DNA of 6,183 nucleotides from an uncultured Ancrocorticia sp. (GTDB lineage Bacteria > Actinomycetota > Actinomycetes > Actinomycetales > Actinomycetaceae): assembly GCA_905373325.1 (NCBI GenBank), contig CAJPTB010000126.1, positions 1 to 6,183 of the forward strand, given 5' to 3'. Position 1 is the stretch's first letter. Each line of letters begins with the position of its first letter. This document shows positions 1-6,183 of this stretch, piece by piece. Position numbers and translations under genes: made by a program. The notes below the pieces were generated by a model. The model was not told where the DNA came from. It made no database searches and saw only the letters and a list, made by a program, of their open reading frames with translations.

Positions 1-108
1 GGATACCCGAGCCCCGGCGGATATTCCGGCCCGGGCGAGGGATTCCCGGGCGGCGGAAACTACTCCGGCCCCGGCGGCGGATACCCCGGCCCCGGCGGGC
101 ACGCCGGG
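1..108 (+). repeat. Degenerate Gly/Pro/Tyr-coding repeat inside the partial gene
   Basis: The DNA repeats variants of a block like TACCCCGGCCCCGGCGG: at 4-21, 28-42, 61-78 and 82-99. It encodes G-Y-P-x-P-G-G and Y-S-G-P-G type units of 6 to 9 residues. The units are imperfect in length and sequence, as expected of a low-complexity coding repeat that changes by slippage. The array may extend upstream of the window. Confidence 0.6.
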
Positions 109-447
109 TTGGACAGCGGCCAGCAGTACCAAGGCCACTATTCAGGCGAATCTTTCTCAGGGCCGCTGTCGGCGCAATCGGCAGGCCAAGCGGAAGCGGG
201 GAACGCCTTGCAAGCTTCGGCTGCCGCGAGCCGGACGCCCTCGGTCGCCGGAAGCCCGGCGCCCTCGCTTCCCCCGAGTGAAAGTGCGCCGGCCACGGCG
301 ACTCCAAGCACTCAGACCCCGCCCCTGCCGAGCACTCACAGCGCTGAAACGACGCCACTGTCGCTCTCTCCCTCAGATTCCCCCTCGCCAGACGCGCGGG
401 ATGGACTTACAGTCCCCCTGAGCGTCCCGCCGACCAAGATTCTCTAG
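1..447 (+). CDS. C-terminal part of an unrecognised protein with Gly/Pro/Tyr repeats and a Ser/Thr/Pro-rich tail (5' end outside window)
   Basis: The reading frame is open from base 1 and ends at TAG 445-447, giving 148 visible residues; the gene starts upstream of the window. A TTG at 109 could be read as a start, but the frame is open and compositionally continuous before it, so I treat the gene as truncated by the window edge. Residues 1-36 are a degenerate repeat of Gly, Pro, Tyr and Ser (units such as GYPSPGG, YSGPG, GYPGPGG). Residues from about 60 on are rich in Ala, Ser, Thr and Pro with almost no hydrophobic stretch. This part looks disordered; no domain, membrane segment or sorting motif is visible. 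Such tails occur on actinobacterial membrane or envelope proteins, but the folded part is missing, so no function is assigned. The gene converges on purA, with a stem-loop between them. Confidence 0.7.
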   Translation, partial: GYPSPGGYSGPGEGFPGGGNYSGPGGGYPGPGGHAGLDSGQQYQGHYSGESFSGPLSAQSAGQAEAGNALQASAAASRTPSVAGSPAPSLPPSESAPATATPSTQTPPLPSTHSAETTPLSLSPSDSPSPDARDGLTVPLSVPPTKIL

Positions 448-474
448 GCCCGGCTCTCTCTAGACCCCGACTCG

Positions 475-508
475 AAGGGGCGTTCACCTGATCGGGTGAA
501 CGCCCCTT
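475..508. terminator. Stem-loop between convergent genes, likely bidirectional terminator
   Basis: AAGGGGCGTTCACC (475-488) pairs perfectly with GGTGAACGCCCCTT (495-508): a 14-bp GC-rich stem with a 6-base loop. It starts 27 bases after the stop of the upstream plus-strand gene and 60 bases beyond the stop of purA on the minus strand, so it can end both transcripts. T-runs are short on both sides (TTTC on plus, TTCG on minus), which is common in high-GC bacteria. Confidence 0.85.
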
Positions 509-568
509 TCGTCGTCATGCCTCCTTGACGGCCCTCCCAGCGGCCCCTTGAAGCCCTGCAAAAGCCCT

Positions 569-1837
569 CTACGAAAGCAGGCTTCGGCGAACGATCGTCT
601 GGTCGCGGCCGGGACCCACTCCGATGAGTGAGATCGGGCAGCCCGACAGACCCTCGAGGGCCGAAACATAGTCTTGGGCTTCGGCAGGCAGGTCTCGAAA
701 ACCGCGGCAGGAGGAGACGTCCTCATCCCATCCGGGAAACATCTCGTAGACCGGCTTGGCTCGCGCAAATTCGGCTTGAGTGACGGGGACGTCCTCGACG
801 CGCACGCCGTCGATCTCGTAGGCCACGCATACGGGGATCTCCGCGAAACCGCCCAAAACGTCGAGCTTTGTCAAGACCAGATCCGTCAGCCCGTTGACTC
901 TGGTCGCGTAACGGGCCACCGGAACGTCGAACCATCCGCAACGGCGCGGGCGCCCCGTCGTCGTCCCGAATTCGCCGCCGCCAAGCCGAAGCCGCTCCCC
1001 CGCCTCGTCGAGGAGCTCCGTCGGGAAAGGGCCCTCGCCCACGCGGGTGACATACGCCTTGGCGATCCCCACAACACGGTCGATGCGCGCGGGCCCCACG
1101 CCCGTCCCCGTGCAGGCCCCGCCGGCCGTCGCGTTCGACGACGTCACGAACGGGTAGGTGCCGTGGTCGATGTCGAGCATCGTCGATTGCCCGCCCTCGA
1201 AGACCACCGTCTCTCCGGCGTCGAGGGCGGCATTGACCTCGCGTCCGACGTCGCCGACCATCGGGCGCAGCCGTTCGGCGTAGCCGGAAAGCTCGGCGAC
1301 GACGGCTTCGACGTCGATCTCCTCACCCGCGCTTTCCAGCAGGGCCCGCTTCTGTTCGACGGCGGCGCCCACGCGCTCGCGCAAAAGCTCGCGGTCGAAA
1401 ACGTCTTGGATGCGAATGCCCAAACGCGACGCCTTGTCTGCATAAGCCGGGCCGATCCCCCTCCCCGTCGTGCCTATCTTGCGCGGCCCCAGACTTCGCT
1501 CGCTGAGCGCGTCGAGGACCTTGCAAAAAGGGGTGATGACGTGCGCATTGGCTGAAATCCGCAGCTTGGCGACGTCGATTCCCCGCGATTCAAGCTCCGC
1601 GATCTCCTGGAAGAGAACGCCGAGGTCCACAACCACCCCGTTGCCGATGACGGGAACGCATCCGGGCGAAAGAATCCCCGAGGGAAGCAGATGCAGCGCG
1701 AACTTCTCCCCATCGACCACCACCGTGTTGCCCCCGTTGAACTTGACGACGCACCGCGCCGCCGTTCCGAGCTGATCGGTTGCCTTCCCTTTGCCCTCGT
1801 CGCCCCATTGCGCTCCGAGAATGACGATTGCGGGCAT
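569..1837 (-). CDS. purA: Adenylosuccinate synthetase, with a 4-residue deletion at the catalytic histidine
   Basis: PurA is a cytosolic homodimer that joins IMP and aspartate using GTP to form adenylosuccinate, the first step from IMP to AMP. The 422 residues cover the whole family; members usually have about 428-432. Visible motifs are the P-loop-like [11 protein letters not shown] with catalytic Asp13, [11 protein letters not shown] near residue 120, [16 protein letters not shown] (Gln of the IMP site), [12 protein letters not shown] (Arg residues for IMP and aspartate), TKLDVL (guanine recognition) and GVGPGRDQT near the C terminus. The start ATG (1837-1835) follows GGAGGA (1846-1841). 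The oddity is residues 35-38, G-G-N-T, where the family has G-G-N/H-N-A-G-H-T: the residues equivalent to E. coli Asn38-Ala39-Gly40-His41 are absent, and His41 is the general acid. The frame is otherwise intact. The gene stands alone, convergent with the upstream gene and divergent from glgP. The family call is certain; full activity is doubtful. Confidence 0.96.
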
Positions 1838-1840
1838 ACT

Positions 1841-1846
1841 TCCTCC
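1841..1846 (-). promoter_or_regulatory. Ribosome binding site of purA
   Basis: On the minus strand the sequence reads GGAGGA, three bases before the ATG at 1837. It supports this start, which also gives the expected family N terminus [15 protein letters not shown]. Confidence 0.8.
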
Positions 1847-2088
1847 GTTTGCCTCAAACCATGTAAAGGGATACCCGCTTTACGTCCCAAGCATAGGCAA
1901 TGACCGCCCGCCGTGCACGGTCCGCCCCGGCGCGATCGTCGCATTTGCCACAAAAGTGGGCGAGCATTTTCCGTCCGGCACCCTGTAGTCTTGATGTGAC
2001 GTGCATGACGCAACGACGCCTGCCCGGTGTCACCGCCATTGCCCGGCGCCAGCCATCGGCCGGAGTTCACAGCGTCCTTTAAGTTCGC

Positions 2089-2094
2089 AAGGAG
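2089..2094 (+). promoter_or_regulatory. Ribosome binding site that sets the glgP start
   Basis: AAGGAG lies four bases before ATG 2099-2101. The frame is open back to a GTG at 2027, but that codon has no good ribosome binding site and the 24 residues it would add are not family-like, so the ATG at 2099 is preferred. Confidence 0.8.
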
Positions 2095-2098
2095 AATC

Positions 2099-4465
2099 AT
2101 GTCGACCGATCTGACGCAGCCATTGGCCGCATTCGTCCGCGCCGCCTCCGGCAAAACCACCCGAAACTCGACCGAGATGGAGTTCTGGACGGGCCTTTCG
2201 AGCCTCGTCGTCGAACGCATCGCCGACGCCTGGCACGCAACTTACCGCGCCTACGAGCCCGGCCGGCAAGCAGCCTACTTTTCCGCGGAGTTCCTCGAAG
2301 GCCGCGCACTGCTCAACAACCTCGTCAATTTGGGCATGCTCGACGACGCCCGCGCCGCCCTCGAAGCCCACGGCCAGAGCCTCAGCGACATCCTCGAGGC
2401 CGAATCCGACGCAGCCCTGGGCAACGGAGGTCTGGGCCGCCTGGCCGCATGTTTCCTGGATTCCTGCGCGACGATGGACCTCCCGGTGACGGGCTACGGA
2501 ATCCTCTACCGCTACGGGCTCTTCAAGCAGACAATCGACGACGGCTTCCAGAACGAGCATCCCGACCCCTGGATGGAGGAGGGCTACCCCTTCGTCATCC
2601 GCCACGAAGAAGCCTCCAAATACGTCCATTTCGCTGACATGCATGTGCGCGCGGTGCCCTACGACATGCCGATCACCGGCTACGGGACGAAGAACGTCAA
2701 CACGCTTCGCCTGTGGAAGTCCGAGCCCATCGAGGAATTCGACTACGACGCCTTCAACTCCCAGCGTTTCACCGACGCGATCATCGAGCGCGAGCGCGTG
2801 GCCGACCTGTGCCGCGTCCTTTACCCGAACGACACGACCTACGAGGGCAAGGTCCTGCGCGTGCGCCAGCAGTACTTCTTCGTTTCGGCGTCGTTGCAGA
2901 CGATGATCGACACCTACATCCGAAACCACGGAGAGGACCTGCGCGACTTCGGCAAGTACAACTCGATCCAGCTCAACGACACGCATCCGGTGCTGGCCAT
3001 TCCCGAACTCATGCGCCTGCTGCTGGACGAGCACGGCATGTCGTGGGAAGACGCATGGAAAGTCGTGCAAAGCACCTTCGCCTACACCAACCACACGGTT
3101 CTCGCCGAGGCCCTGGAAACGTGGGAGACCTCGATTTTCCAGCAAATCTTCCCGCGCATCATGGAGATCGTCGCCGAAATCGACCGCCGGTTCCGCATCG
3201 AGCTCGCCGACAAAGGCTGCGACCAGGGGAAGATCGACTACATGGCGCCGCTCTCCGGAGGGCGCGTGCACATGGCGTGGATCGCCTGTTATGCGTCGTA
3301 TTCGATCAACGGCGTCGCGGCAATCCACACCGACATCCTCAAGCGCGACACCCTCCACGACTGGCACGACATCTGGCCCGAGAAGTTCAACAACAAGACG
3401 AACGGCGTGACGCAACGCCGCTGGCTCAACGCCTGCAACCCGGGCTTGGCCGCGCTGCTGACCGAGAAGCTCGGCTCCGACGCCTGGGTTCGCGACCTCT
3501 CAAAGCTTCTCGACCTCGAGGCCAAGGGCGACGACGCGCTGTATGAGCGCCTCAACGAGATCAAGCGCGAGAACAAGGTGCGTTTCGCCGAATGGCTGGA
3601 AAAGCGCCAGGGCGACTCGATTCCGATCGACGCCGTCTACGACGTGCAGATCAAGCGGCTGCATGAGTACAAGCGCCAGCTTCTCAACGCCATGTACATC
3701 CTCGATCTGTACTACCGGATGAAGGCCGACCCCGGCATGGACGTCGTCCCGCGGGTCTTCATTTTCGGCGCCAAGGCCGCCCCCGGATACAAGCGGGCGA
3801 AGGCCATTATCAAGTTCATCAACGAAGTCGGCCGCGTCGTCAACAACGACCCCGACACGAAGGACCTCATCCGCGTGGTTTTCGTCGAGAACTACAACGT
3901 GACGCCCGCCGAGTACATCATCCCCGCAGCCGACGTCTCCGAGCAGATCTCGATGGCAGGAAAAGAGGCCTCGGGAACGTCGAACATGAAGTTCATGATG
4001 AACGGCGCCCTCACGCTCGGCACGCTCGACGGCGCCAACGTGGAAATCGCCGATGCCGTCGGCGAGGACAACGCCTACATCTTCGGAGCCCGCGAAGAGG
4101 AGCTCCCCGAGCTTCGCCGCAACTACGACCCCCGCCACCACTACGAGACGGTCCCGGGACTCAAGCGCGTCATGGACGCCTTCGTCGACGGCACCCTTGA
4201 CGATGGAGGATCCGGCGACTTCCACGATCTGCGGGCCTCGCTGATCGACGGCTCGTCGTGGGACAAACCCGACACCTACTATCTGCTGGGCGACTTTGCG
4301 TCCTATCGCGAAGCCCGCGACGGCATGGCCGAGGACTATCGCGACCGCAAGGAGTGGGCGCGCAAGTGCTGGGTCAACATCTGCCGTTCGGGCATTTTCA
4401 GCTCCGACAGGACGATCGGCGACTACGCCCGCGACGTCTGGAAGATCGAACCGAAGTCCATCTGA
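2099..4465 (+). CDS. glgP: Glycogen/maltodextrin phosphorylase (GT35, PLP-dependent)
   Basis: This enzyme uses phosphate to release glucose-1-phosphate from the non-reducing ends of alpha-1,4-glucans in the cytosol. At 788 residues from ATG 2099 it matches the usual bacterial length of about 800. Visible motifs are YFSAEFLEGR near residue 60, the glycine-rich GNGGLGRLAAC at 108-118, FNNKTNGVTQRRWL in the middle, and DVQIKRLHEYKRQ at 515-527. In the last, Lys519, Arg520 and Lys525 match muscle Lys568, Arg569 and Lys574 of the phosphate site. EASGTSNMKFMMNG carries the lysine (Lys631) expected to form the Schiff base with pyridoxal phosphate. There is no extended N-terminal regulatory region of the kind seen in eukaryotic enzymes. 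Whether glycogen or shorter maltodextrins are preferred (GlgP or MalP) cannot be read from sequence. It is divergent from purA and upstream of a sugar-binding lipoprotein gene, but a hairpin and a promoter candidate separate the two. No broken motif was seen. Confidence 0.96.
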   Translation: MSTDLTQPLAAFVRAASGKTTRNSTEMEFWTGLSSLVVERIADAWHATYRAYEPGRQAAYFSAEFLEGRALLNNLVNLGMLDDARAALEAHGQSLSDILEAESDAALGNGGLGRLAACFLDSCATMDLPVTGYGILYRYGLFKQTIDDGFQNEHPDPWMEEGYPFVIRHEEASKYVHFADMHVRAVPYDMPITGYGTKNVNTLRLWKSEPIEEFDYDAFNSQRFTDAIIERERVADLCRVLYPNDTTYEGKVLRVRQQYFFVSASLQTMIDTYIRNHGEDLRDFGKYNSIQLNDTHPVLAIPELMRLLLDEHGMSWEDAWKVVQSTFAYTNHTVLAEALETWETSIFQQIFPRIMEIVAEIDRRFRIELADKGCDQGKIDYMAPLSGGRVHMAWIACYASYSINGVAAIHTDILKRDTLHDWHDIWPEKFNNKTNGVTQRRWLNACNPGLAALLTEKLGSDAWVRDLSKLLDLEAKGDDALYERLNEIKRENKVRFAEWLEKRQGDSIPIDAVYDVQIKRLHEYKRQLLNAMYILDLYYRMKADPGMDVVPRVFIFGAKAAPGYKRAKAIIKFINEVGRVVNNDPDTKDLIRVVFVENYNVTPAEYIIPAADVSEQISMAGKEASGTSNMKFMMNGALTLGTLDGANVEIADAVGEDNAYIFGAREEELPELRRNYDPRHHYETVPGLKRVMDAFVDGTLDDGGSGDFHDLRASLIDGSSWDKPDTYYLLGDFASYREARDGMAEDYRDRKEWARKCWVNICRSGIFSSDRTIGDYARDVWKIEPKSI

Positions 4466-4491
4466 GCGTTCTCGAACCGGAGTCCGTCTGA
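4446..4491 (+). repeat. Imperfect direct repeat of the last glgP codons
   Basis: TCGAACCGAAGTCCATCTGA (4446-4465, ending in the glgP stop) recurs as TCGAACCGGAGTCCGTCTGA (4472-4491). They match at 18 of 20 bases and are 26 bases apart, so the second copy is out of frame with glgP. Both differences are A to G. The second copy has no evident function and is most simply a small local duplication. Confidence 0.75.
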
Positions 4492-4569
4492 CCCTTCCGG
4501 AATCGAGCAGCCTGCTGCCCAGAACGTCTCGGATTAGCCGGACGACGCCGGCGGTGCCTTTTCTGACGC

Positions 4570-4622
4570 GTACGTGATCTCATGATGAGCACTGGAGGCG
4601 ACTCATGAGATCACGTACTTTT
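4570..4622 (+). terminator. Perfect 16-bp inverted repeat plus TTTT, probable glgP terminator
   Basis: GTACGTGATCTCATGA (4570-4585) and TCATGAGATCACGTAC (4603-4618) are exact reverse complements, separated by 17 bases and followed directly by TTTT (4619-4622). It lies about 105 bases after the glgP stop and well before the next promoter candidate, which fits a rho-independent terminator. Unusual points are the low GC of the stem for this genome, the long loop, and a GGAGG (4594-4598) in the loop six bases before an ATG (4605) in the right arm. It could instead be an operator or an element that controls translation. Confidence 0.6.
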
Positions 4623-4716
4623 CGCCGTCTCTGCTGCGTCTTGCGCGATCTTGCGAATCTTTTCCGCACCTTTTCGCCAAAAGGAGACCTCCGTTTCTGT
4701 AACGTTTGTGCAACAG

Positions 4717-4745
4717 TTTTCATAACCGCCTCCACTTGTGATAGA
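4717..4745 (+). promoter_or_regulatory. Promoter candidate for the solute-binding protein gene
   Basis: TTTTCA (4717-4722) as -35 and GATAGA (4740-4745) as -10 are 17 bases apart, with TG at 4737-4738 forming an extended -10. The predicted start of transcription is near 4752, giving a leader of about 77 bases. An AACGTT palindrome (4701-4706), the core of many LacI-family operators, lies 10 bases upstream of the -35 box, but its flanks are not symmetric. The site is AT-richer than its surroundings. Confidence 0.45.
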
Positions 4746-4755
4746 AAATGGGTAC

Positions 4756-4806
4756 GCTCGGCTCTCACCGAGCAACGCACACCCCGACGGCGGGACTGTC
4801 TCGCCG
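4756..4806 (+). other. Two consecutive stem-loops in the leader of the solute-binding protein gene
   Basis: GCTCGG (4756-4761) pairs with CCGAGC (4768-4773) around a 6-base loop. CGGCGGGA (4788-4795) pairs with TCTCGCCG (4799-4806), with one G-T pair and a 3-base loop. The second ends about 9 bases before the ribosome binding site. They may protect the 5' end of the mRNA or tune translation; neither has a T-run, so they are not terminators. No riboswitch class is recognised. Confidence 0.4.
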
Positions 4807-4814
4807 GTTTGTCC

Positions 4815-4823
4815 AAAGGAGGG
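4815..4823 (+). promoter_or_regulatory. Ribosome binding site that sets the lipoprotein start
   Basis: AAAGGAGGG lies five bases before ATG 4829-4831. The frame stays open back to an ATG at 4748, but starting there would place 27 charged residues before the lipoprotein signal peptide and uses no ribosome binding site. Confidence 0.85.
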
Positions 4824-4828
4824 CATTC

Positions 4829-6172
4829 ATGCGTCGCACCACAAGCATCGTGGCCGCCGTGGCGGCGGCTGCGGTTTCTCTCGGAGGCCTAGCGGCCTGC
4901 TCGAGCAGCTCTGACAAGAAAGACGACGGCAAAGCCTCCGTCTACTACCTCAACTTCAAACCCGAAGCCGAGAAGGCCTGGAAGAAAGTCGCGGCAGAAT
5001 ACAAGAAGAAGACGGGCGTCGAGGTCAAGATCCGCACCGCGGCGGCCGGAAACTACGAGCAGACGCTCAAGACAGAAATCAACAAGTCTGACGCACCGAC
5101 CCTCTTCAACGTCAACGGCCCCATTGGCCTGAAGAACTGGGAGAAGTACGCCTCGGATCTGAGCGACGAGAAATTCACCAAGGATCTGACAAAGAAAGAT
5201 TTGGCGCTCAAGGGCGAAGACGGCAAGATCTACGGCGTCCCCTTCACCACCGAGGGCTATGGAATCGTCTACAACGACGCCATCATGAAGAAGTACTTCG
5301 CCCTGCCGGACGCCAAGGCGAAGTCGGTCGACGAGATCAAGGGCTTCGACAAGCTCAAGGAAGTCGCCGAGGACATCCAAGCCAAGAAGGACCAGCTCGG
5401 CATCAAGGGCGCATTCGCTTCGACGTCGCTCGCTTCCGGGGAAGACTGGCGCTGGCATACCCACCTGGCCAACTACCCCCTCCATTACGAGTTGAAGGAC
5501 GCCAAAGCCAAGGACGCCGACACCCTTAAGGGGACCTACCTCGACAACTACAAGAAGATCTTCGACCTGTACCTGAAGAACTCGACGGTTTCGCCTTCGG
5601 AGGCGAGCAACAAGTCCGTTTCCGACTCGATGTCCGAGTTCGCCCGCGGCCAGGCCGCCATGGTCCAGAACGGCAACTGGGCCTGGGAGCAGATCAAGGG
5701 CGACAAGGGCAACGTCGTCAAGCCTGAGGACGTTCATTTCCTTCCGATCTACACGGGAGTCAAAGGCGAGGAAAAGAACGGCATCGCGATCGGAACGGAG
5801 AACTACCTCGCCCTCAACAACAAGGCCTCCGAATCCGACAAGAAGGCTTCGATCGACTTCGTCAATTGGCTCTACACCTCCAAGGAAGGCGCCAAGCTGG
5901 TCTCCGAGGACCTCGGCTTCATCGCGCCTTTTAAGGCATTCGCCTCCCAGAGCCCATCCGATCCGCTCGGCAAAGAAGTGGTCAAGTACATCAACAACAA
6001 GGACCTGGATCCCGTGACCTGGGACTTCACGGTCTTCCCCTCGGAAGACTACAAGAAGCAGCTCGGCTCGCACCTCCAGCAGTACGCAGCCGGCAAGGAA
6101 GAGTGGTCCGACGTCGCCAAGTACTTCACTTCCGAGTGGAAGAAGGGCAAGGAACAGAACAAGGACAGCTAG
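4829..6172 (+). CDS. Sugar ABC-transporter solute-binding lipoprotein (family 1, MalE-like)
   Basis: The product is 447 residues, a lipid-anchored protein outside the membrane that captures a sugar and delivers it to an ABC importer. Residues 1-24 form a type II signal peptide: MRRTTS, an Ala/Val-rich core, then the lipobox LAAC with Cys24 as lipidation site, followed by a Ser/Asp/Lys linker. The mature part has the family 1 fold signatures: a first strand and helix at about 37-60, TLFNVNGPIG near 91-100, YGVPFTTEGYGIVYND with the hinge-near strands, GEDWRWHTHLAN from about 204, and the aromatic MVQNGNWAWEQ at 278-288, which typically stacks on sugar rings. Closely similar proteins are remembered from Firmicutes and bifidobacteria next to oligosaccharide permeases. 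The substrate cannot be named. The surface is very rich in Lys, coded mostly by AAG. The gene ends 11 bases before the window edge; permease genes are expected next but not seen. Confidence 0.94.
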   Translation: MRRTTSIVAAVAAAAVSLGGLAACSSSSDKKDDGKASVYYLNFKPEAEKAWKKVAAEYKKKTGVEVKIRTAAAGNYEQTLKTEINKSDAPTLFNVNGPIGLKNWEKYASDLSDEKFTKDLTKKDLALKGEDGKIYGVPFTTEGYGIVYNDAIMKKYFALPDAKAKSVDEIKGFDKLKEVAEDIQAKKDQLGIKGAFASTSLASGEDWRWHTHLANYPLHYELKDAKAKDADTLKGTYLDNYKKIFDLYLKNSTVSPSEASNKSVSDSMSEFARGQAAMVQNGNWAWEQIKGDKGNVVKPEDVHFLPIYTGVKGEEKNGIAIGTENYLALNNKASESDKKASIDFVNWLYTSKEGAKLVSEDLGFIAPFKAFASQSPSDPLGKEVVKYINNKDLDPVTWDFTVFPSEDYKKQLGSHLQQYAAGKEEWSDVAKYFTSEWKKGKEQNKDS

Positions 6173-6183
6173 CGCACAGGCGG

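Follow-up and report, generated by a model that had tools for sequence, protein, structure and literature searches.

A purA gene lacking the Asn-Ala-Gly-His block in an uncultured Ancrocorticia sp.: a candidate for a recent null allele

Results

The missing block

The adenylosuccinate synthetase (PurA) encoded in the stretch of DNA analysed here (6,183 bases in full; hereafter the window) is full length apart from a missing block of four residues, the equivalent of Asn38-Ala39-Gly40-His41 in Escherichia coli PurA. We favour, from sequence comparison, a private and recent event, either a real deletion or an artefact, as the origin of this loss, because the sister genome and a second protein (P0121) carry the block and the rest of purA is without decay. 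The features that bear on the gap are as follows.

569..1837, minus strand: purA, adenylosuccinate synthetase gene, 422 aa (ORF, TIGR00184 and NF002223 matches, E. coli PurA alignment)
1725..1729, minus strand: deletion junction (sister-genome alignment; 3-base ambiguity)
1784..1804, minus strand: intact P-loop GDEGKGK with Asp13 (computed from residue numbers 12-18; E. coli alignment)

The minus strand at 1715-1738 reads AAC GGG GGC AAC ACG GTG GTG GTC, or N-G-G-N-T-V-V-V, placing G-G-N-T-V-V where G-G-N-N-A-G-H-T is usual. Alignment with E. coli K-12 PurA (L122) revealed that exactly columns 38-41 (N-A-G-H) are absent, and no displaced N-A-G-H was found elsewhere in the window protein; codons and alignment together confirm the original prediction that these four residues are missing. 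Measured against the corresponding stretch of the sister genome (L097), the gap comprises exactly 12 bases, as had been proposed, and is in frame; the remaining reading frame contains no stop and no frameshift. Because three bases repeat, placements of the junction after 1725, 1726, 1727 and 1728 are equivalent; the junction first suggested, 1726/1727 with an AC microhomology, is one of these four, and the microhomology is corrected from 2 to 3 nt.

Window PurA scored above the cut-offs of both curated PurA models, TIGR00184 (502 bits; cut-off 395.55) and NF002223 (577.5 bits; cut-off 402). The E. coli alignment also bore out the expectation that the other motifs are intact, including the P-loop GDEGKGK with catalytic Asp13 and the motifs, TKLD among them, that we take to form the IMP, aspartate and guanine sites. 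Membership of the phage 2-aminoadenylosuccinate synthetases (PurZ) was not indicated: the protein scored 108.7 of 300 bits against NF038379, and it has Asp13, the place at which PurZ presumably has Ser. Window PurA thus resembles the PurA family (TIGR00184, NF002223, PF00709; Actinomycetaceae branch) in sequence, length, P-loop, IMP- and GTP-site motifs and genomic place, and differs from it in lacking Asn38-Ala39-Gly40-His41, in which the listed homologues, with one exception among 212, show at most a change of Ala39 to Ser. Judged by its sequence, the gene is a homologue and an allele of purA, a designation that does not claim a working synthetase.

Conservation of the block

A homologue search of about 5.8 billion proteins (8000 scored, best 120 listed) and a second search confined to a 41-residue query spanning the junction (best 120 listed; 3404 of 3497 candidates within E 10) together yielded the 212 PurA-type proteins that we read for the block motif. 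The best 120 homologues of the first search showed GGNNAGHT in 119 cases and GGNNSGHT in one; over both listings, the counts were 210 for GGNNAGH, one for GGNNSGH, and one exception (P0146). N-(A/S)-G-H is therefore kept in 211/212 listed homologues, in agreement with the original statement that G-G-(N/H)-N-A-G-H-T is usual in PurA, and the site is, on these counts, not a variable spot. G-G-N-T was found in none of the other 211 listed PurA-type proteins. A clade sharing the deletion was ruled out among the matches listed, since the junction-region search put intact sequences on top; the database was clustered at 90% identity, and the cluster of P0001 (183 members) could hide carriers.

A strict P-loop pattern was applied to 122 loci, some of which overlap or repeat. 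It recovered 106 PurA N-termini, every one with N-(A/S)-G-H; the remaining 16 comprised 10 loci with NAGH, two C-terminal pieces and four entries of a divergent PurA-like paralogue (two genomes with one such gene apiece, both represented twice among the loci). This paralogue (L117/L120 in G008, L118/L121 in G036) carries G-W-G-D-E-G-K-G, with H-Q-A-A-H replacing H-N-A-G-H; its His is therefore kept although the preceding residues differ, and a check on whether divergent PurA or PurA-like genes dispense with the block found the His retained. The natural Ala39-to-Ser variant, GGNNSGHT, occurs in a whole genome (L084 of G179) and in a protein cluster of 108 members (P0020).

Comparison with the sister genome

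We compared the window with 213 genomes from the family of Ancrocorticia populi, among which G178 (2.5 Mb) encodes a PurA 97% identical to that of the window, with the full N-A-G-H block. By BLAST (blastn task, low-complexity filter off), window bases 3-6183 aligned in one piece to positions 8166-14327 of L097, from this genome, at 92.5% DNA identity, and the stretch around purA (543-1900) at 93%. The other features of the window are listed below.

1-447, plus strand: end part of a proline/glycine-rich ORF (ORF list)
2099-4465, plus strand: glycogen phosphorylase gene glgP (ORF list, profile matches)
4829-6172, plus strand: ABC sugar-binding lipoprotein gene (ORF list, profile matches)
4570-4585 and 4603-4618: perfect 16-nt inverted repeat with 17 nt between its arms, in the interval between glgP and the sugar-binding gene

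The 12-bp gap was the only indel relative to L097 in purA, glgP and the sugar-binding gene, barring a 2/2 pair of gaps that cancel out; this pair, which covers a run of substitutions aligned by BLAST without gaps, is an effect of the alignment. Pairwise dN/dS against L097 was 0.091 for purA, 0.038 for glgP and 0.059 for the sugar-binding gene, with dS between 0.16 and 0.20 in the three genes. The purA value lies above those of both neighbours, which speaks to some extent against full constraint until very recently, yet it is far from neutral. Apart from the gap, window PurA differs from that of G178 at 14 residues, all outside the named active-site motifs, and thus none of them a compensating change in the motifs listed. 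No decay beyond the gap was seen in window purA as judged by indels, stops, frameshifts and dN/dS against L097, a pattern that would fit either a deletion too recent for other damage or no deletion in life.

The position of the window gene in the collinear stretch matches that of the single purA of the sister; a PF00709 search found no second purA in G178, and G178, G179 and G180 each gave one match. The sister genome also encodes purF (498 bits; cut-off 350), a purB-like gene just under its cut-off (325.6 versus 326.2 bits) and adenine phosphoribosyltransferase, apt (187.2 bits; cut-off 185.85). We found no purA in six of the 213 family genomes (G025, G087, G124, G140, G156 and G173), two of which also lack a strong purB match; their completeness was not stated, and we dropped them as a lead since they are probably incomplete assemblies.

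Several further observations concern the rest of the window. The ORF at 1-447 encodes a repetitive proline/glycine-rich C-terminal part with several indels relative to the sister genome, and is the window's only length-variable coding stretch besides the purA gap. At 4441-4498 a diverged near-copy of the glgP 3' end follows the original at a 26-base offset (22/32 bases match), and about 60 bases in this region are absent from the sister genome. The 16-nt inverted repeat may act as a terminator-like element or bind a protein. P0216, a protein related to the sugar-binding one (87% identity over 92%), carries the name Peptidiphaga gingivicola, so that the window is likely to come from a Peptidiphaga-like oral actinomycete.

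Intact and altered copies in other contigs

P0121, encoded on a 4577-base contig, contains the block. Over positions 1-195 it differs from window PurA only in the block and at residue 178, and it shares the window's residues at 93, 95, 137 and 161, where the window and G178 differ; these lineage residues, combined with the intact block, therefore place an intact allele within the lineage of the window or in a very close one. Beyond position 195, P0121 turns into unrelated sequence. P0121, P0004 and P0003 each match the window lineage in part and another sequence in the rest, and look like assembly chimeras.

P0146, a PurA of 325 aa from a JGI metagenome, has, like window PurA, lost four residues of G-G-N-N-A-G-H-T. 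Unlike window PurA, it retains the His (G-G-H-T); it comes from a different lineage (63% identity) and has a frameshifted C-terminal part, its frame breaking after the GEGPFPT motif.

Predicted consequences for the enzyme

We take His41 to be the general acid that protonates the 6-phosphoryl leaving group, and His41 mutants of PurA to be inactive. Literature searches for His41 found at most an off-topic paper, the purA papers listed included none with H41N, and the available portions of PMC6136348 and PMC12884076 contain nothing on the His. In the Helicobacter pylori enzyme, Asp12 and the backbone carbonyl of Gly39 coordinate the metal (modelled as calcium), IMP is contacted by Asn37, and GDP is held by residues 12-16 and Thr41 (PMC11276676); the distance from Asn37 Nδ2 to an IMP phosphate oxygen is given as 2.79 Å in an excerpt of a further report (PMC11571797). 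By our own mapping, H. pylori Gly39, Asp12, Asn37 and Thr41 correspond to E. coli Gly40, Asp13, Asn38 and Thr42, with an offset of one.

PurZ shares its superfamily fold with window PurA, and the available part of the work on the phage S-2L enzyme describes it as a PurA relative with altered active-site residues (PMC8342488). Whereas the window protein keeps Asp13 and has lost the block, PurZ keeps N-A-G-H-T (N49, A50, G51, H52, T53), with N49 and A50 in the base pocket and G51, H52 and T53 among the substrate contacts (PMC8342488, same part). Since a metal ligand and an IMP contact of the orthologue come from this block, which phage PurZ also keeps, window PurA is predicted to be inactive, and by analogy we hold a strong expectation that its activity is lost. 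The deleted protein would keep its fold and P-loop; it would lose the Gly40 backbone metal ligand, the Asn38 contact to IMP and His41, and IMP would then not be phosphorylated and adenylosuccinate not be made. AlphaFold models built from the same 13 input sequences had a pLDDT of 71.9 for the deleted and 72.0 for the intact PurA; overall confidence did not separate the two, and the active-site loops were vague and of low confidence in both.

Discussion

The original prediction offered a recent deletion or a sequence error. The intact sister gene and P0121 favour a recent, private event, and between its two forms we lean towards the deletion, holding an artefact to be a substantial but lesser probability. 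The reading we prefer, with modest confidence, is a recent slippage-type null allele that is private to the window's lineage and encodes a protein predicted to be catalytically dead. The deletion would then be present in living cells, having arisen through replicative misalignment of a 3-base direct repeat among GC-rich codons. The repeat at the junction fits the replication slippage first suggested, and a 12-base slip between 3-base repeats is plausible; a 3-nt microhomology is nevertheless weak evidence, as 28 of the 888 distinct 12-bp deletions of the sister purA have at least as much. In the sister gene, slippage by 12 bp from one GGC repeat to another would yield the G-G-H-T of P0146, and this suggests that the block may be prone to slippage, whether in vivo or in vitro. 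Against a null allele stands the fact that the deletion was seen in one sequence only and is absent from the other 211 listed proteins.

Such an allele is, in our best reading, survivable only with purine salvage. A carrier cell would depend entirely on imported adenine or related purines for its AMP, and carriers would be maintained as an auxotrophic minority where a community is rich in purines, for example in dental plaque, which we assume to be a habitat of a Peptidiphaga-like actinomycete, as is the oral cavity in general. Adenine salvage appears plausible because the sister encodes apt, and adenine could sustain a purA-null strain of this type.

The most serious competitor, possible though in our judgement less probable, is an artefact introduced during amplification, sequencing or metagenome assembly, in which a polymerase or an assembler jumped at a short GC-rich repeat and no living carrier exists. 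Several observations agree with it: the gap strikes a block kept by 211/212 listed homologues; an intact, near-identical copy exists in P0121; P0146 combines a four-residue loss at the same block with a downstream frameshift, as in low-quality sequence, and its G-G-H-T is reproduced by the GGC-repeat jump in the sister gene; and P0121, P0004 and P0003 look chimeric, so that errors are indeed present in the metagenome assemblies concerned. The gap is, however, exactly in frame, the window's other coding sequence has no frameshift or stop, and base-calling errors do not typically remove 12 bases cleanly.

A working PurA variant, in which another acid protonates the leaving group and supports the 6-phosphoryl chemistry without the Asn-Ala-Gly-His block, would agree with the intact frame, the other motifs and the constraint at the coding level. 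We consider it very unlikely: the loss occurs in none of the other 211 listed proteins, the top junction-region matches and the near-identical P0121 keep the block, the block provides a metal ligand and an IMP contact in the H. pylori orthologue, and the 14 differences from the sister include no compensating change in the listed motifs. The suggestion that this is a new functional variant thus finds no support, as none of the 212 listed proteins is of this kind and both PurZ and the divergent paralogue keep the His. Least probable of all is a decaying duplicate with an intact purA elsewhere in the same genome, since the window copy occupies the place of the sister's only purA in a collinear stretch, G178, G179 and G180 have a single PF00709 match each, and the gene bears no sign of decay beyond the gap.

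Real or artefactual, the gap leaves existing knowledge of the enzyme unchanged. If it is an artefact, it illustrates how a catalytic residue can seem to be lost in a database entry although intact, nearly identical copies exist. If it is real, the window holds a naturally arisen allele in which a core purine gene carries an in-frame deletion; this allele would mark an adenine-dependent strain in an oral community and would allow a clean test of the need for the most conserved PurA loop.
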